This document shows, one piece after another, positions 17,049-25,145 of a stretch of 37,511 nt of DNA. The notes under the pieces were generated by a model. The model ran no database searches, had not been told where the DNA came from, and worked only from the letters and a program-made list of their open reading frames with translations. The stretch's first letter is position 1. The number at the start of each line of letters is the position of its first letter. Both the position numbers and the translations under genes were made by a program. Origin of the DNA: Gemmatimonadota bacterium (GTDB taxonomy: Bacteria; Gemmatimonadota; Gemmatimonadetes; Longimicrobiales; Gaopeijiaceae); assembly GCA_003559555.1 (NCBI GenBank), contig PWLA01000252.1, positions 1 through 37,511 of the forward strand, read 5' to 3'.

Positions 17049-19352
17049 ATGAAGATCGAGAAGCTCAAAGAGAAAGCCCGGGAGCACGAGCAGGAGGAGA
17101 ACTGGATGGAGGCCATGGGCCTCTATTCACAGGCCCTCGAGCGATCCACCGAGGCCGAGGATGAGCCGGATATCGCCCTGCACAACCGGATCGGGGACCT
17201 CCAGGTTCGGATCGGCGACCTGCAGGGGGCGGTGGAGAACTACGAGACGGCCATCGACCTCTATCTGGAGGCCGACCTTCCGAACAACGCCATGGCCGTG
17301 TGCCGGAAGCTGGAGCGCAACGCCCCGGGACGCCCCTCGGTCCTGCGACGCATGGGCCAGATCCGGATCCGACAGGGATTCGTGGTGGACGCCCGGCAGG
17401 ACTTCCTGAACTACGCTGAGGTCCAGTTGGCGCAGGGCGATGCCGAGGAAGCCCTCCGGGCGCTGGAGGAGTTCGCCACCCTGGCCCCCGACGACGTGGA
17501 GATCCGACTCTTTCTTGCCGAGCAGCTTCGGGGCTCCGATCGGCCCGAGGACGCGGTGATCCACCTGGCTTCCGCATACCGGCTCCTGGCGGACCGGGGC
17601 GAGGACGAGCTGGCCGACGGCGTTCGAGAGCAGATTGCGGAGCTGGCGCCGGAGGAGGATCTGGGATCCCTCCTGGCGGCCGGGTTGGGTGAGGACCCGG
17701 AGGAACCCCACTCCGATGCCGACGACCTGGGGGATCTGGAACCCGCCGACGGCCTGGACGGATTCCAGACCACGTCCCTCTCCGAGATCGCCCTGGACGA
17801 CCCGGCCGAGAGTGGGATCGACGTTGCGGATGGGGTTGAGGACGAGCAGGAGGCTCCCCCTGCGGAGGAGCCGGTGGAGGCCGAGGGGGATGGGCTCGGA
17901 GATCCCCTGGCGGGCACCGTCTTCGATCTGGACGAGTCGGGCGGAGACGAAGCCGAGGAGGAGGAAGCCCCCCAGGCCTCGGCGGAGGCCGCGCTGGGGG
18001 ACCTGACATCGGACGACCTGGGTGAGTCGGCCCTGGAGGGCTTCCAGGCCACGGAGCTGGAGGGCGAGGAAACGCTGGAGGACGAGGCTGAGCTCGATCC
18101 CCTCCCCACACTTTCGGACGACCTCGAGGACGACGAAGACGACTTGGAGCCTCTTCCCACCCTCTACGATGAGGACCTGGAGGAGGACGAAGAGGAGATG
18201 GAGCCGCTCCCGACCCTGGACGACGACCAGGAGGACCAGGAGCCGGACCCGCTTCCGGGCCTGGATGAGCCCGACGCCCCGGACGAGGAGGCGTGGCAGC
18301 AGGACGATCTGGACGCTCTTCCGGCTCTGGGCGCGGACGAGACCGCGGACGCCCTGTCCACCCTGGATCAGGTCACCCTGGATGACGGCGAGAGCCTCCA
18401 GGCGCTGGAGTCCCAGGTGGACCGCGAGCCCGACGACGCCGATGCATGGAGGCAGCTCGGGGTACGGCTCTTTGAGGAGGATCAGGAGGAACGGGCCCGG
18501 GAGGCTCTGGAGAAGGCACATCGGGCCTACGCCGAGGCCGGGGATCCGGAGCGGGCCATGCGGGTGGTCCGGGAGCTCATCTTCCACGAACCCGATGGGG
18601 TGGAGCACTACCAGCGGCTCGTGGAGTACGCCAATCGCACCGGAGACCGGGCTCTTCTGGTGCCCGCCTTTCTGGAACTGGCCGAGGCGCTGGAGCGCAC
18701 CGGCGCCCAACGGAAAGCCGAAGTGGTCTACGGCCAGGTCCTGGCGTTGGACCCCCGGAACCCCCGGGCCCGGAAGGCCCTGGCGGTGGGGACGCCCGGT
18801 GAGGCCGCCGGAGAACGGAGGGACCGGTCGGGATCCTTCGTGGACCTGGGAGGGATGGTTCTGGACGAGGAGTCTCCGGAGCAGACCTTCCGGTGGCGGC
18901 TCGGGGACGCCGATCCTTCGGGAGACGAGGAGGCCGATTTCGCCCGGATGCTCTCCCGATTCAAGGAGAAGGTCGCCACCGGCATGCCGGCGGATGACGC
19001 CATCGCCCACTACGACCTTGGCGCTGCCTACAAGGACATGGGTTTGATCGACGAGGCCATCGGTCAGTTCAAGCAGACGCTCCGGGCCCGACCCAACCAC
19101 CTTCCGGCGTTCGAGATGGTGGGACAGTGCTTCCTGGAGAAGGGAGAGCCGGACCTGGCAGTGCGCACCCTCACCCGGGCCCTGAAGGTGGAGCCGGAGG
19201 TGGAGGACGAGCTCCTGGGCATCTACTACTACCTGGCCAAGGCCTACGAGGAGGCGGGGAACCCCGAGTCGGCAAGGGAGTTCTACGAACGGGTCTTCTC
19301 ACTGGATATCAACTTCATGGATGTGACCGAGCGGCTCCGGGGCCTCCGGTGA
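17049..19352 (+). CDS. TPR protein with acidic repeat-bearing linker
   Basis: ATG 17049 starts the typical TPR opening MKIEKLKEKAREHEQEENWM; the upstream frame is noncoding. The 767-residue product has no signal peptide or membrane helix and is probably cytoplasmic. Residues about 1-215 form TPR-like repeats (NRIGDLQVRIGDLQGAVENY, LRRMGQIRIRQGFVVDARQD), 216-430 a very acidic disordered linker, and 450-767 a second TPR block (YDLGAAYKDMGLIDEAIGQF, YLAKAYEEAGNPESAREFYE). The linker carries two (D/E)GFQ(T/A)T motifs (residues 237 and 330) and five tandem (D/E)xLPxL motifs. I do not recognise a characterised homologue. A scaffold that tethers partners through short linear motifs is an inference. 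Confidence 0.8.
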   Translation: MKIEKLKEKAREHEQEENWMEAMGLYSQALERSTEAEDEPDIALHNRIGDLQVRIGDLQGAVENYETAIDLYLEADLPNNAMAVCRKLERNAPGRPSVLRRMGQIRIRQGFVVDARQDFLNYAEVQLAQGDAEEALRALEEFATLAPDDVEIRLFLAEQLRGSDRPEDAVIHLASAYRLLADRGEDELADGVREQIAELAPEEDLGSLLAAGLGEDPEEPHSDADDLGDLEPADGLDGFQTTSLSEIALDDPAESGIDVADGVEDEQEAPPAEEPVEAEGDGLGDPLAGTVFDLDESGGDEAEEEEAPQASAEAALGDLTSDDLGESALEGFQATELEGEETLEDEAELDPLPTLSDDLEDDEDDLEPLPTLYDEDLEEDEEEMEPLPTLDDDQEDQEPDPLPGLDEPDAPDEEAWQQDDLDALPALGADETADALSTLDQVTLDDGESLQALESQVDREPDDADAWRQLGVRLFEEDQEERAREALEKAHRAYAEAGDPERAMRVVRELIFHEPDGVEHYQRLVEYANRTGDRALLVPAFLELAEALERTGAQRKAEVVYGQVLALDPRNPRARKALAVGTPGEAAGERRDRSGSFVDLGGMVLDEESPEQTFRWRLGDADPSGDEEADFARMLSRFKEKVATGMPADDAIAHYDLGAAYKDMGLIDEAIGQFKQTLRARPNHLPAFEMVGQCFLEKGEPDLAVRTLTRALKVEPEVEDELLGIYYYLAKAYEEAGNPESAREFYERVFSLDINFMDVTERLRGLR
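18096..18329 (+). repeat. Tandem acidic PLPTL-type repeats inside the TPR protein
   Basis: The protein hexamers DPLPTL, EPLPTL, EPLPTL, DPLPGL and DALPAL occur at residues 350, 367, 385, 400 and 422, each separated by 9-16 mostly Asp/Glu residues. Periods are 17, 18, 15 and 22 residues. The DNA copies differ in codon choice, so this is not a fresh DNA duplication; the peptide motif seems to be conserved. Confidence 0.7.
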
Positions 19353-19420: not shown

Positions 19421-20428
19421 ATGACCAACGCCCATTCCGCTACAACCGCCCCTCCCTCCCGCCTGGCCCGGATCCAGGGTCCGGTGAGTCGCCGGCTCGA
19501 CGGCGTGGTGGATGAGGTCCGGCGGATCCTCCTGGCGGATTTCGACATGCAGGAGGAGGTCCACGAGTATCTCCTGAAGATGCGGGGGAAACTCTTTCGA
19601 CCCACCCTCCTGCTCCTGGCCAACGACGTGGGTGGGCGTCCCCACCCGGACGCCCTGCCCCTGGCGGCGGTGGTGGAACTGGTGCACCTGGCCACACTGG
19701 TCCATGACGATGCAGTAGACCACTCCGTGCTGCGCCGGGGGATGCCCACGGTGAACCATCTCTGGACTCACCAGGTGGCGATCATCACCGGAGACTATCT
19801 CTACGCCCGGTCCATTACTGAGCTGGCCCGCATCGGCCGTCTCGAGGCCATCACGGCGCTGGCCCACGCCTCAAGTGAGATGAGCGTGGGCGAGCTCCGT
19901 CAGCTCACCTCCTACGATGCCCTGGACTTCTCCGAGGCAGACTACGAGCGTCTCATCGCATCCAAGACGGCGTCGCTCATGGCGGCGGCCTGTGAGATCG
20001 GTGCGCTGGTGGGCGAATCCGGTGCCCGGGAGCTCTTTCGCCAGTACGGACACGCCCTGGGCATGGCCTTCCAGATCGCCGATGACCTCCTGGACTACAC
20101 CGGGAGTGAGGAGGAGACGGGAAAGCCCACGGGCCACGATCTGCGGGAGCGGAAGGTGACCCTTCCCCTGGTGGAGTCCCTCCGCAGGGTGGGGCCGCAG
20201 GATCGGGCCCGGATCCGGGAGTTCTTCACCCTGGTGGATCCCACCGATGCGGAGATCGGGGAGATCGTGACCATCGTGCGGGAGACCGGAGGATTGGAGT
20301 ACGCTCGCCGCCGAGCCGACCACTTCGCCTCGGTGGCCCACAGCGCACTGGACGAGATCGGAGAGGCGGGCGAAGCGGTGGACGCCCTCCGGGACGCCAT
20401 CGCCTACGCCATCGAGCGGAGCCGTTAG
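19421..20428 (+). CDS. ispB: All-trans polyprenyl diphosphate synthase
   Basis: Adds isopentenyl units to an allylic diphosphate to make the long prenyl chain of quinones. ATG 19421 follows AGGA by six bases; the longer frame overlapping the previous gene is noncoding. The 335-residue product carries the GKLFRPTL entry motif, the first aspartate-rich motif LVHDDAVD (Asp96, Asp97, Asp100), the second QIADDLLDYTG (Asp221, Asp222, Asp225), and GKPTGHDL with the downstream basic RERKVTLPL. Chain length cannot be read with certainty. The quinone-chain class (IspB/HepT/SdsA) is favoured over farnesyl or geranylgeranyl synthases because no extra residues interrupt the first motif. Confidence 0.9.
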   Translation: MTNAHSATTAPPSRLARIQGPVSRRLDGVVDEVRRILLADFDMQEEVHEYLLKMRGKLFRPTLLLLANDVGGRPHPDALPLAAVVELVHLATLVHDDAVDHSVLRRGMPTVNHLWTHQVAIITGDYLYARSITELARIGRLEAITALAHASSEMSVGELRQLTSYDALDFSEADYERLIASKTASLMAAACEIGALVGESGARELFRQYGHALGMAFQIADDLLDYTGSEEETGKPTGHDLRERKVTLPLVESLRRVGPQDRARIREFFTLVDPTDAEIGEIVTIVRETGGLEYARRRADHFASVAHSALDEIGEAGEAVDALRDAIAYAIERSR

Positions 20429-21123: not shown

Positions 21124-21167
21124 GTCCGGGTGGGCCGGGTTCACCCGGGCCCCCTTCCTGTTAGTCC

Positions 21168-21213
21168 ACAACGAAAAGCCCCTCCGCCAGTCCAGGCGGA
21201 GGGGCTTCGTTGT
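21168..21213. terminator. Bidirectional intrinsic terminator between tatA and ppiD
   Basis: The arms 21168-21188 and 21195-21213 pair over 19 bp with a two-base bulge, around a six-base loop (AGTCCA). The GC-rich core GCCCCTCCGCC/GGCGGAGGGGC is flanked by an A-rich left side and a T-containing right side, suiting both strands. It sits between convergent genes. A further 9-bp inverted repeat, GTCCACAAC (21164-21172) with GTTGTGGAC (21227-21235), encloses it and shares the left arm. Confidence 0.88.
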
Positions 21214-21237
21214 ATCAGACGGGAGGGTTGTGGACGA

Positions 21238-23088
21238 TCAGAACGCCATGGGGATCTGCGGCTGGTCGGCCTGATCCTCGGCCATGCGGAAGTACTCGGC
21301 CCGGGTGTCCTGGATCCGGGTCACCTCCCGGAGCCCGTCCAGCCAGAGGTCCAGCCGCTGCTGCCGGAGCTCGGCCGTCCGCTGGGCCCGTTGCATGGCC
21401 TTCTGGGCCTCCCACGCCTCACGATCGGCCTCGATCCGCTCCTCCACCCGGATGACCAGGACCCGATCACCGACCCGAACGGGCCCGGCGATCTCACCCT
21501 CGCTGGCACCGAATACGGCGCCCACGGCGGCGTTTCGGGTCCCCAGCCCCGGCACGAAGTCGGTTCGGCTGAAGGGACCGGCGGTCTCCACGTCGACGCC
21601 GACCCGTTGGGCCACCTCCTCCAGCGAGGTGCCAGCGCGCAGCTCCGCGGCGATCTCCCGGGCGTCGTCGTGGGCGCGCTCCACCTTCTTCTGGAGTCGG
21701 AGACGGCTCTCGATCTGCGGCGCCACGGCGTCCAGATTCATGTATCCGGCTCGGGTCAGATTCCGGACCTCGACCATGTAGAACGCTTCCCGGTTCTCGA
21801 AGACCGGGCTCACCGCACCGATGCCTTCCCGCTCGTCGAAGATCCAGTCCTGGGCCTCGTCGGCCTGACCCACGCCCGGAAGGATCGCGTAGTCTTCAGT
21901 GATCCGCCCGTCTCGAGCGCTGATCCCCATCTGGTTGGCAGCTTCGTCCACCGTCATGGTCCGTCCCATCGACTCCAGGGAGTCGGCACGGGTCAGCAGC
22001 CGGATCTCCGACGCGTCGGTACGGCCCATCTCCACCAGAATGTGTCGTGCTTCCTCGACTTCGTCACCGTCCCGGGCGAGCACTTCCAGGATGTGCCAGC
22101 CGTATTCGGTGGGGAAGGGCTCGCTGACCTCGCCCACCGGGATGGAGAAGGCGACCTCCTCGAACTCCTCCGGCCACTGCCCGTCCCCCCGGGTGAAGGG
22201 CTCCAGCATGCCGCCCTGGGGCCCGGTGGAGCGATCATCGCTCTCCAGGTCCGCCAGGTCTTCGAAGGGAACGCCCTCCTCCAGCTCCACCCGGATCTGC
22301 TCGGCCCGCTCCATCTGGGCGATCGAATCCTCGGCGGTGGCGGCCTTGGGCAGGTACGCGTAGCGGACCCCGGCGGTGGCGGGAATGGAGAATTCGTCCC
22401 GGTTCTCGCTGTAGTAGGCCTCGATCTCGTCGCGGGTGACCTCCACCTCGCTGTCGGGTACGTGGTCCTGGGCCCGGAGCATGAGGAAGCTCACCGTGGC
22501 CTGCTCGTTCCGGTCTCGCCACTCCTCCCAGAGCTGCCGGTCGGAGACGTAGACGCCGGAGGTGAGCTGCCGCAGGAGCTTGTTCCGGGGGATCATGTCC
22601 CGGTAGTAGCGCTCCAGGTCCCTGAGGAACTGCGGATCCTGGGCCGCCTGGCTCAGCCACTGCTGATACAACTGCATGTCGAACTGGCCATCGGTCTGGA
22701 AGTTGGGGTCGTCCCGGAGCCCCGGGGGAGGAGCGGTCCGCACGGCCTGCCGGATCTCGTCATCGGTGACCCGGATGCCCCGGCGCTCCAGTTCCTTCTG
22801 GATGAGGATCTGGTCCACCACCTCGTTCCACGCCATGTCCTCGATCTCCCGGTCCTGCTGGGAGGAGATGGGGGTGTCCTGCTCCCGCTGCACCTGGTCG
22901 TAGAGGTTCCGGTAGATGGTCTGATATTCCTGCACGGGGACGTTGGTGCCGCCCACGCTCCCCACGTTGCCGGCGCCACCGCTCTGTCCGCTGGCGTCCA
23001 TTCCCCATTCGAAAACCATGAGAGCCACGAAAGCGGCTGCCGTGATCAGCATGATCCACTTCGTGTTCTCCCGCATTTGCCGCATCAT
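21238..23088 (-). CDS. ppiD: Membrane-anchored peptidyl-prolyl isomerase (PpiD/SurA type)
   Basis: An envelope foldase that helps exported proteins fold at the periplasmic side of the inner membrane. The 616-residue product starts with a basic cytoplasmic segment and one uncleaved helix (about 11-30: KWIMLITAAAFVALMVFEWG). A SurA_N-like chaperone domain follows (about 45-215: YRNLYDQVQREQ, WNEVVDQILIQKELERRGI). A parvulin-type region (about 235-365) carries GPQGGMLEPF, AFSIPVGEVSEPF and GWHILEV; a second, degenerate isomerase-like part and a helical tail end it. The plan is that of PpiD. It is the only minus-strand gene of the window and is transcribed alone. Confidence 0.9.
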   Translation of the reverse strand: MMRQMRENTKWIMLITAAAFVALMVFEWGMDASGQSGGAGNVGSVGGTNVPVQEYQTIYRNLYDQVQREQDTPISSQQDREIEDMAWNEVVDQILIQKELERRGIRVTDDEIRQAVRTAPPPGLRDDPNFQTDGQFDMQLYQQWLSQAAQDPQFLRDLERYYRDMIPRNKLLRQLTSGVYVSDRQLWEEWRDRNEQATVSFLMLRAQDHVPDSEVEVTRDEIEAYYSENRDEFSIPATAGVRYAYLPKAATAEDSIAQMERAEQIRVELEEGVPFEDLADLESDDRSTGPQGGMLEPFTRGDGQWPEEFEEVAFSIPVGEVSEPFPTEYGWHILEVLARDGDEVEEARHILVEMGRTDASEIRLLTRADSLESMGRTMTVDEAANQMGISARDGRITEDYAILPGVGQADEAQDWIFDEREGIGAVSPVFENREAFYMVEVRNLTRAGYMNLDAVAPQIESRLRLQKKVERAHDDAREIAAELRAGTSLEEVAQRVGVDVETAGPFSRTDFVPGLGTRNAAVGAVFGASEGEIAGPVRVGDRVLVIRVEERIEADREAWEAQKAMQRAQRTAELRQQRLDLWLDGLREVTRIQDTRAEYFRMAEDQADQPQIPMAF

Positions 23089-23171
23089 AGGCTGGCCCCT
23101 CCTGTTCGGGCGCCCCTGCTGGGTGTGTCCTGTCCGTGTACTGGTGTCGCGCGTCGCACGCGCCGTCGAAT

Positions 23172-23177
23172 GTTATA
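23172..23177 (-). promoter_or_regulatory. Candidate -10 box for ppiD
   Basis: Read on the minus strand, GGTATAAC gives a five-of-six match to the sigma70 -10 box in an otherwise GC-rich area, about 84 bases before the start codon. No good -35 is found at 16-18 bases upstream, so it may depend on an activator or not be a promoter. Confidence 0.35.
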
Positions 23178-23350
23178 CCGAAGACCGGGTGAGACGTTCG
23201 CCTCGGTGTTCCTGGTGGATGCCGCGATCCGCACTGGCGGCGGGACGAGGCTCCGGAGCCGGACCGAGGCACGTGCAGGCCGGGAAGCTAACGCAAGCGC
23301 CGGGGGGCCTCAAGCAGACCTCCCGGCAGTCTGATCGGAGAGGGGCGTCG

Positions 23351-23380
23351 TTGACACTCTTCCGGGCGGAACCCTATCTT
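23351..23380 (+). promoter_or_regulatory. Strong sigma70-like promoter for TPR-aroQ
   Basis: Consensus TTGACA (23351-23356) and TATCTT (23375-23380) with an 18-base spacer; the predicted start is near 23387. It is the best promoter in the window. It also decides the start of the next gene, because a TTG start at 23379 would lie inside the -10 box. Confidence 0.72.
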
Positions 23381-23450
23381 GCCCCGCTGGAGGAATCGTT
23401 CGTTTCCCCCTGCGAAGCTCCCTCTCCGACCTCTCACTGGAGGGTCTCAG

Positions 23451-25145
23451 GTGTCCCAGGCGATCGAGCAGGAGATCCGCACACTTCGCACTCACTTCTG
23501 GTCCGCTCGGGACCCGGAGGGCCGGGCGTTTGCGCCCCTGGCCGACGCATACCGCAGAAAAGGCGACCTGGACGAGGCCATCTCCCTGGTGGAGGACGGC
23601 CTCGCCCGGCTTCCGGACTTTTCCCCGGGTCACCTGGTGGCGGCCCGGATCCTCCGGGCTCGGGGGGATCTGGAGGCGGCCCGGGAAGCGCTGGACCACC
23701 TCCTGGAGCTGGACTCCGAGAACGTGCTGGCCCTCCTGGAGCGTGCCGAGTTGGCCCGGGACACCGGCGATCGGGAGGGGGCGATCCTGGGCCTGCGTCG
23801 GCTCCTGAGCCTGGATCCGGGTCACCTGGGGGCCCGGGCCGCGCTGGATCGCCTGGAGGCGGCCGGCCCGGCCCCAGAGACGACACCGGCCCCAGAGACG
23901 ACACCGGCCCCGGAGACGGCGCCGGCCACGGAGCGGCCATCGGAGCCTCCCATCGACCCGGCGCCGGGAGCCGACGACGAGGCGGAGACGCCAGGTTCTG
24001 TGCCGGAAGAGGCGCTCGAGCCGGAAGAGGCCGAACTCCTGGAGTTCGGCGACACCTCGCTGAATGACCTGGATGAGGGCACGTGGGGCCTGATGGACGA
24101 CGAGGGGGAGGCCGATCCGTCGCTGACCCCTGACGGCTTCCAGCCCACCGGAGCCGCCGGGATGTCCGAACTGGCGGAGGACCCGTCCGAGGTGGAGGAC
24201 CTCCCTGACAACCTGCGCGATGCGGAGGCCGGTGACTCCTCCGGTGATCTGGCCGTATTCGATTTCGGGATGGAGGTGGGACCGGAAGAGGAGCCGGATC
24301 CTTCGGCGGATCGCCCACCTCTGGACCCGCAGGGGGTGGATCCGTTGGTGGGCGTGGAGGGTCTGGACGACCTCACCGGTCCGGAGCTGGACGCACCGAG
24401 CCCGGACGTCGCTCCCTCCCGCCCGGGTGCGGCGGTCGGAGGGGAGTTGGATGATGGATCCGCTCTCTCGGCCGGGGCCGACGATCTTCCGCCTCACCTG
24501 GTCACCCGAACCATGGCGGAACTCTACCTGGCCCAGGGACTCACCGAGGACGGGCTCCGGATCTACGAGAGGCTGGTCCAAAAGCAGCCGGACGACGGCG
24601 CCGCTCGGAGTCGGCTGGAGGAGCTTCGCCGGGAGTTCGAGACTGCCGAGCCGGCGGAGGACCGCGCTCGCGAGGTCGCCGAGTCGGCTGCCGTCGAGAC
24701 CCTGGGTTCGGAGGAAGTCACCGATTCGCCATCGGCCGAGGAGGAGCTGGATGAGATGGCTCCGCAGTGGAGCGGAGAGGAGGCCGATGAGGCGGAGGCT
24801 CCGGCCACGCCCTTCGCCTGGGCCACCGCTCAGGAAGATGAGGGCGAGGCGGTGGTGGAGACCGGCGCCGAGCGCTCCATCCGGGAGCACTTCGACGACC
24901 TGCTGGCCTGGGTCCCGGGAGCCGTCGCCATCGGTGACCTCTCGCCGGAGGCGGCGGCGGAGCGGGCACCGGCGGGATCGCCGTTGGCGGAGCGGCTGGC
25001 CCGGCCCGAGACCGCCCGGGCCGAGCCTGCGGCATCCGGGGCCCCGGATGCCGACGTCCCCCCCCGGGAGGACGCGGCGGAGGAGGACGAGGTAGACGAC
25101 GACCTGGACGATTTCCGGTCGTGGCTCGAGAGTCTCGATCCGTGA
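23451..25145 (+). CDS. Second TPR protein with long acidic linker
   Basis: GTG 23451 is chosen: GGAGGG lies six bases upstream and the start is downstream of the promoter. The 564-residue product has no signal or membrane segment. Residues about 1-135 are TPR repeats (FAPLADAYRRKGDLDEAISL, AARILRARGDLEAAREALD, RAELARDTGDREGAILGL). A three-copy APETTP repeat and a long Asp/Glu-rich linker with a DGFQPT motif (residue 228) follow. One more TPR-like pair lies near 345-385 (MAELYLAQGLTEDGLRIYER). The C-terminus ends DDLDDFRSWLESLDP after an HFDDLLAWVPGAV element. A homologous layout to the TPR protein at 17049 suggests related scaffolds. The stop overlaps aroQ (GTGA). No function is known to me. 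Confidence 0.8.
   Translation: MSQAIEQEIRTLRTHFWSARDPEGRAFAPLADAYRRKGDLDEAISLVEDGLARLPDFSPGHLVAARILRARGDLEAAREALDHLLELDSENVLALLERAELARDTGDREGAILGLRRLLSLDPGHLGARAALDRLEAAGPAPETTPAPETTPAPETAPATERPSEPPIDPAPGADDEAETPGSVPEEALEPEEAELLEFGDTSLNDLDEGTWGLMDDEGEADPSLTPDGFQPTGAAGMSELAEDPSEVEDLPDNLRDAEAGDSSGDLAVFDFGMEVGPEEEPDPSADRPPLDPQGVDPLVGVEGLDDLTGPELDAPSPDVAPSRPGAAVGGELDDGSALSAGADDLPPHLVTRTMAELYLAQGLTEDGLRIYERLVQKQPDDGAARSRLEELRREFETAEPAEDRAREVAESAAVETLGSEEVTDSPSAEEELDEMAPQWSGEEADEAEAPATPFAWATAQEDEGEAVVETGAERSIREHFDDLLAWVPGAVAIGDLSPEAAAERAPAGSPLAERLARPETARAEPAASGAPDADVPPREDAAEEDEVDDDLDDFRSWLESLDP
23871..23924 (+). repeat. Three-copy 18-bp tandem repeat
   Basis: The unit GCCCCAGAGACGACACCG occurs exactly twice (23871-23888, 23889-23906) and a third time with three changes (23907-23924). 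It encodes APETTP-type hexapeptides at the border of the TPR block and the acidic linker. Two identical copies imply recent slippage, so copy number may vary between strains. Confidence 0.75.

Follow-up and report, generated by a model that had tools for sequence, protein, structure and literature searches.

A gene in a 37,511-nucleotide stretch of a Gemmatimonadota genome (contig PWLA01000252.1 of assembly GCA_003559555.1, a draft genome of 3.5 Mb), below called the window, encodes a tetratricopeptide repeat (TPR) protein with a long acidic linker, in which a PLPTL-like peptide word occurs five times. The same word, in varying copy number, recurs in the linkers of orthologues far more often than in shuffled sequences, and selection on the peptide word, as judged from these sequence comparisons, is well supported. 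The preferred interpretation, to which we assign a probability of about 0.58, is that the protein acts as a soluble hub, with repeated weak docking words along its flexible acidic linker to which a partner protein would bind. The parts of this TPR hub protein and of its array are as follows; confidence of structure prediction is given as the predicted local distance difference test (pLDDT).

17049-19352, plus strand: gene of the TPR hub protein, 767 amino acids, ATG start (MKIEKLKEK...) in agreement with the aligned orthologue starts
17049-17690, plus strand: first TPR block, residues 1-214, high-confidence helices in the AlphaFold2 model and matched by Pfam TPR models
17691-18395, plus strand: acidic linker, residues 215-449, for the most part predicted to be disordered, with pLDDT below 50 at residues 218-307 and 309-439
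18096-18113, plus strand: hexamer 1, DPLPTL, residues 350-355, opposite a gap in the sister species
18147-18164, plus strand: hexamer 2, EPLPTL, residues 367-372, the aligned place in the sister reading DPLPTL
18201-18218, plus strand: hexamer 3, EPLPTL, residues 385-390, seen in the sequence and in orthologue alignment columns
18246-18263, plus strand: hexamer 4, DPLPGL, residues 400-405, seen in the sequence
18312-18329, plus strand: hexamer 5, DALPAL, residues 422-427, seen in the sequence
18348-18365, plus strand: degenerate sixth copy-like stretch DALSTL (S for P), residues 434-439, which may be a chance occurrence
18396-18788, plus strand: second TPR block, residues 450-580, from the AlphaFold2 model
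18900-19349, plus strand: third TPR block, residues 618-767, from the AlphaFold2 model, with a fold match to peptide-binding TPR domains

Residues 216-429 (17695-18335) contain 43 glutamates and 42 aspartates among 214 amino acids (39.7%) and not a single lysine or arginine. The five [DE]xLPxL hexamers, spanning nucleotides 18096-18329 with spacings of 17, 18, 15, and 22 residues, account for all five LP dipeptides of this region. In 100,000 shuffles of the 214-residue linker the mean number of hexamers was 0.15 and the maximum three, so that five were never reached. At identical residues of the LPxL cores, the codons differ in 21 of 33 comparisons (0.64, versus 0.58 expected from the gene's own usage), and Tandem Repeats Finder reported no hexamer-unit array here, only two 9-base doublets. 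An earlier interpretation made from the letters of the window alone (the sequence-only reading) had described an Asp/Glu-rich linker of about 215 residues, five (D/E)xLPxL hexamers at periods of 15-22 residues, and different codons in the DNA copies. All of this holds, the codons behaving like random draws. It had also placed the linker between two TPR blocks; the linker does lie between TPR blocks, but there are three of them, and it separates the first two.

The protein belongs to the TPR superfamily (TPR_14 at 1.3e-29 and TPR_2 at 1.3e-27 in Pfam, and three helical blocks). The third block is the best-conserved part of the protein, with a mean majority fraction of 0.75 over 48 orthologues, and its fold matches peptide-binding TPR domains with Z of 17-19 over about 115 residues, a similarity of fold that by itself says nothing about the ligand; designed TPR repeats are matched as well. 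The comparison with peptide-binding domains covered the fold; in those of the HOP/CHIP type an EEVD tail is held by carboxylate-clamp residues. Inspected by eye, the protein appears to be soluble, having no recognizable signal or membrane segment.

Relatives of the gene were collected by a family search, in which 86 of 121 genomes had a match at E 0.001, weak TPR-only matches included. Copies of the same genes (L001, L030, L032) and linkers shorter than 80 residues were left out of the word counts, and L073, L075, and L077-L080 were left out of the order counts, the same genes being counted as L100, L035, L098, L040, L099, and L042. The alignment of 48 family orthologues leaves out five of 53 two-block sequences (L017, L049, L060-L062), which were read separately. 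L060-L062 are shorter TPR-protein paralogues of 426-477 amino acids after trimming, with a short linker. Motifs in the 48 orthologues were counted via alignment columns, the first linker set being too short at the C-terminal side for several sequences. A larger alignment was made without L167, L098, and the copies; length excluded nine of 84 sequences, and seven more of the 75 then remaining were also dropped.

The tight word LP[TLM][LMFI] has 57 occurrences in the 43 linkers of the family (shuffles, 1.0), 64 in the 18 linkers of two sister families of the order (shuffles, 1.35), and 12 in the 20 linkers representing the remainder of the class (shuffles, 2.4). Neither the reversed word (0, 1, and 3 occurrences in the family, order, and class linkers, respectively) nor the permuted one (1, 0, and 2) exceeds chance. 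LP dipeptides as such are also in excess, 233 being found in the family and order linkers versus 117 expected. Around all of them, P, E, or D is enriched on the N-terminal side and L/T/M, L/F/M/I, and D/E at the three successive positions on the C-terminal side, giving the consensus [PED]-L-P-[LTM]-[LMFI]-[DE], often with a hydrophobic residue next. All 48 aligned orthologues have the looser word LPx[LMFIV] in the stretch that follows the first TPR block and runs to residue 594 (mean 16.0 and maximum 25 in shuffles), in one copy in 16, two in eight, three in four, four in ten, five in five, and six in five. Outside this alignment, L049 has three copies ahead of the C-terminal block. For the other families, denoted f2-f6, LPx[LMFIV] is found in all ten f3 sequences (shuffle maximum nine), in nine of ten f5 sequences (7.3 expected), and in the only f6 sequence, with tight-word counts of 27 versus 0.70, 10 versus 1.56, and 2 versus 0.06, respectively.

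The word is retained while the rest of the linker changes. Compared with the remaining L, P, T, M, F, and I residues of the linker, those of the motif show the higher rate of identity in 20 of 22 informative species pairs. The comparison comprised 28 pairs, six of them having no word in the stretch used; the pairs overlap and are not independent, and the aligner favors laying like words together. For instance, motif identities of 8/8, 18/20, 16/16, and 14/16 stand against 0.13 to 0.67, with a slight margin in several pairs. Two pairs run contrary to the trend (L070/L071 with 0/4 and L168/L157 with 3/12), and those within the genus of the window are weak (4/12 to 10/16, the best being 6/8). In the alignment itself, which tends to bring such words together, 45 of 48 sequences show L at column L387 and 42 show P at column P388. 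The motif is conserved above the surrounding disordered chain, as in a docking array, the exceptions being the closest sister, L017, and the short paralogues. The comparison of orthologues proposed with the sequence-only reading thus speaks for selection: the looser word is present in 48 of 48 aligned orthologues, but its positions are not fixed.

The strict form [DEP]LP[TLM][LMFI][DE] occurs 16 times in 20 open reading frames (ORFs) of the TPR hub protein (whole-ORF D+E content 20%) and not once in 14 ORFs of the neighboring acidic TPR protein (22% D+E), and it is absent from proteins consisting of the C-terminal block alone (L063, L065, L069). A 15-position motif profile run against the window's own genome with E up to 10 gave three matches, one hexamer of this array and two chance-like ones, and returned only one of the five known copies, so absence elsewhere in the genome is not established by it. 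One of the chance-like matches lies in an ORF that looks protease-like by eye, beside a DnaK-like ORF (L253).

The closest sister, locus L012 of genome G068, whose sequence ends inside the array, is 87% identical to the window protein in the N-terminal block (179/205) and 40% identical in the linker (67/167). Its linker retains islands, namely DGLDGFQTTSLxEIALDDPAES, DPLAGTVFDLDE, and two PLPTL hexamers, and drifts elsewhere. Conserved linear words in the linker are thus of three or more kinds, and the sequence-only reading caught the repeated one. The additional linker words in the window are as follows.

17748-17813, plus strand: island DGLDGFQTTSLSEIALDDPAES, with the second motif type [LF][EQD]xT[ATSGH][LF], kept in the sister
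17901-17936, plus strand: island DPLAGTVFDLDE, identical in the sister, with similar strings in L005, L006, and L013
18027-18062, plus strand: SALEGFQATELE, second copy-like stretch of the second motif type, falling in a gap of the sister alignment and not retained

The pattern [LF][EQD]xT[ATSGH][LF] occurs 16 times in the 43 family linkers versus 0.44 in shuffles, and elsewhere six times in 18 linkers (0.24 expected) and 11 times in 20 (0.44 expected). A further word, VF[LI]D[LVT], is found in 18 of 20 f4-f6 sequences (L151-L170) and in none of the 66 f1-f3 sequences examined; in the listed f4-f6 sequences LVFLDL or a similar word stands near the end of the first TPR block. That VF[LI]D[LVT] replaces LPxL is no more than a guess. 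The third-word pattern VF[LDIST][LIV], which was poorly drawn, showed no excess in linkers.

On the docking interpretation, the flexible acidic linker would display copies of a PLPTLD-like word on a TPR hub, and each copy would weakly bind a folded partner. Several copies on one flexible, highly charged tether would increase avidity or allow a single hub to carry several molecules of the partner, and the TPR blocks would hold other clients. The copies would arise in part when a unit of 12 to about 20 residues is duplicated in tandem, with selection retaining the LPx-hydrophobic core while spacers and codons drift. We infer protein binding by the motif, a partner distinct from the hub itself, and avidity as the purpose of the array. 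Of the selection for multivalent binding suggested by the sequence-only reading, selection on the peptide stands (by the word excess, the presence in 48 of 48 orthologues, and the codons of the window), but the rest is less secure: 16 of 48 orthologues have a single copy and so no multivalency, positions shift and tandem duplication supplies copies in other lineages, and the binding itself is inferred.

Several observations weigh against this interpretation. No binding partner was found. The 16 orthologues just mentioned have one copy each, and the full-length orthologue L017 has no copy in a linker of 424 residues; the linkers of the short paralogues L060, L061, and L062 lack the motif as well. 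The closest sister keeps two PLPTL hexamers, with a gap opposite the first one of the window, and only 12 of 18 motif residues are identical. In f2, LPx[LMFIV] is present in 8 of 8 sequences, which is matched by shuffles (5.0, maximum 8), so that presence alone proves little there, although the tight-word count (37 versus 0.97) is not matched. There is no excess in f4, with LPx[LMFIV] in three of nine sequences (5.3 expected) and no tight word (0 versus 0.72). Two of the genomes checked (L255 of G034 and L257 of G041) lack the TPR gene where it normally stands, which indicates that the hub is dispensable in some lineages. Finally, the arrays of L053, L038, and L094 are recent duplications.

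The last point bears on the proposal that the array is merely a product of slippage and of the amino acid bias of an acidic linker. Codons are shared beyond expectation in L053 (differing in 5 of 49 comparisons of identical motif residues, 0.44 expected), L038 (10/34, 0.49 expected), L046 (1/17), and L094 (104/253, 0.60 expected, with 11 copies spaced exactly 12 residues), which is the mark of young duplication; L035, L052, L084, and L100 have a codon pattern resembling that of the window. Plain as the recent duplication is in L053, L038, and L094, it provides copies that selection can keep, and the proposal is very improbable for the window: the codons there differ as random draws do, the shuffles and the reversed and permuted words contradict it, and a comparably acidic neighbor protein has no strict word. 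As a source of the window array, pure slippage is ruled out by the codons, though slippage is real in other lineages, and chance or composition is ruled out by the shuffles together with the reversed and permuted words. It is also rather unlikely, if considerably less so, that the words are not docking sites at all and act within the linker, either as hydrophobic stickers compacting the acidic chain or as recognition sites of a protease or chaperone. Copy number and position do vary freely, and in the window the hydrophobic cores sit among 85 negative and no positive side chains, both as such a role would allow; yet stickers would accept many orders of hydrophobic residues, and the reversed and permuted words are not enriched.

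The main alternative, which we regard as unlikely, is that the motif binds the TPR grooves of its own protein, either between molecules, leading to self-assembly, or within one, producing a closed state. In its favor, the third TPR block is the best conserved one and is similar to peptide-binding TPR domains (Z 17-19). In the AlphaFold2 model of residues 380-767, parts of hexamers 3 and 4 (residues 383-389 and 400-403) reach pLDDT of 50 or more, the spacers and hexamer 5 staying below 50; in the full-length model the whole array is below 50, and neither run gave a confident placement of the array on its own chain. The raised values at hexamers 3 and 4 may reflect weak docking or no more than conservation, and the version with only the C-terminal block (L063, L065, L069) occurs without any linker.

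Catalogues of conserved docking motifs within disordered regions are extensive for eukaryotes and far thinner for bacteria. In CITED2 and HIF-1alpha, an LPxL word in a disordered region is recognized by the folded TAZ1 domain of CBP; these are animal transcription factors with one word and not an array, and no relation to them is claimed. CsoS2 of alpha-carboxysomes uses words different from those of the TPR hub protein and has no TPR blocks. It is a bacterial disordered protein with repeated partner-binding motifs (PMC10484944). Among the papers listed by searches of the open-access literature in PubMed Central, none describes an LPxL or PLPLL docking motif in bacteria or a TPR hub in Gemmatimonadota, in line with the remark of the sequence-only reading that it knew no characterized protein with such an array. 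We rate the multivalent motif array on a scaffold as a known kind of arrangement and the word itself as undescribed.

Among bacterial scaffolds, the best reading of the comparison is that the TPR hub protein would work like HubP of Vibrio and Shewanella, although it is not classed there. PMC12918733 describes the cytoplasmic part of HubP as acidic and largely unstructured, its imperfect acidic repeats differing in number from one species to another, and the TPR domain of HubP/FimV as thought to bind clients. The acidic unstructured region is found here too (39.7% D+E, pLDDT below 50). Unlike HubP, the chain begins with TPR helices at residue 3, and TPR blocks flank the linker on both sides. 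The periplasmic LysM-like domain at the N-terminal side of HubP/FimV is seen neither among the 25 of 28 Pfam matches listed nor among the 17 NCBIfam families, and the single transmembrane segment of that family is not recognizable by eye. As to its C-terminal FimV-type domain, no FimV model is among the 17 NCBIfam matches, provided that this library includes one. The third TPR block also resembles MamA, the magnetosome TPR scaffold (E 2.5e-23, 82.6 bits; PDB 3vtx, E 1.4e-15), but 82.6 bits is far under the model cut-off of 200, and the acidic linker lies outside the matched stretch.

In the present case, three families of an order have retained a single word, in one to about a dozen copies, amid a fast-changing linker. 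Since the word is kept while other linker residues turn over fast, its role is testable with one peptide and one mutant, and the natural range of copy numbers allows one to ask what avidity gives a bacterial hub.

Downstream, the TPR gene is adjoined by the following gene.

19424-20428, plus strand: polyprenyl diphosphate synthase gene (Pfam PF00348)

The synthase directly follows the TPR gene in all 20 long loci and in all 74 named loci that extend 700 bases or more downstream. The named loci were drawn from 339 that share this C-terminal block, of which the best 80 were used; 77 of these had the block and three were too short for the downstream count, which leaves 74. By title, 75 of the best 80 belong to Gemmatimonadota, Gemmatimonadetes, or a subgroup thereof. 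Record L175 (JAHEKL010000048.1), titled Gammaproteobacteria, carries the Gemmatimonadota gene, and its title is probably wrong. In the family loci, tatC, lptD, and a fibronectin-like lipoprotein gene are usually found upstream, and a second TPR protein and efp downstream. In the order-level loci L114, L119, and L120 only the TPR-synthase pair was recognized. Two of four candidate genomes were read for loss of the TPR gene, one reduced (2.0 Mb) and one of 4.5 Mb; the synthase is kept where the TPR gene is missing and hence does not depend on the hub.

The second TPR protein (23379-25145, plus strand) has a different tandem word array in some relatives (IDALAPDE, DLAALAPD, and the like, in L105, L108, L109, L111, and also L103). 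Its 16 sequences contain 38 occurrences of the pattern L[AS]P[DE], versus 3.2 in shuffles (maximum 11); 30 of the 38 lie in four sequences, and the window copy has one. A broader hypothesis, improbable as a whole, is that neighboring TPR proteins each have a private docking-word array, PLPx-hydrophobic-[DE] here and LAALAPD-type two genes on, the LVFLDL of f4-f6 being the same site in another spelling. Such a hub system would recruit partners with graded avidity and might organize isoprenoid synthesis, because a polyprenyl diphosphate synthase adjoins in every locus checked.

Between the synthase and the second TPR protein lies a gene on the minus strand (21238-23088), whose product resembles by eye a PpiD/SurA-type peptidyl-prolyl isomerase and has related sequence in 60 of 77 named loci. 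It is hidden by a long ORF on the plus strand (21130-23331), which is antisense to it.
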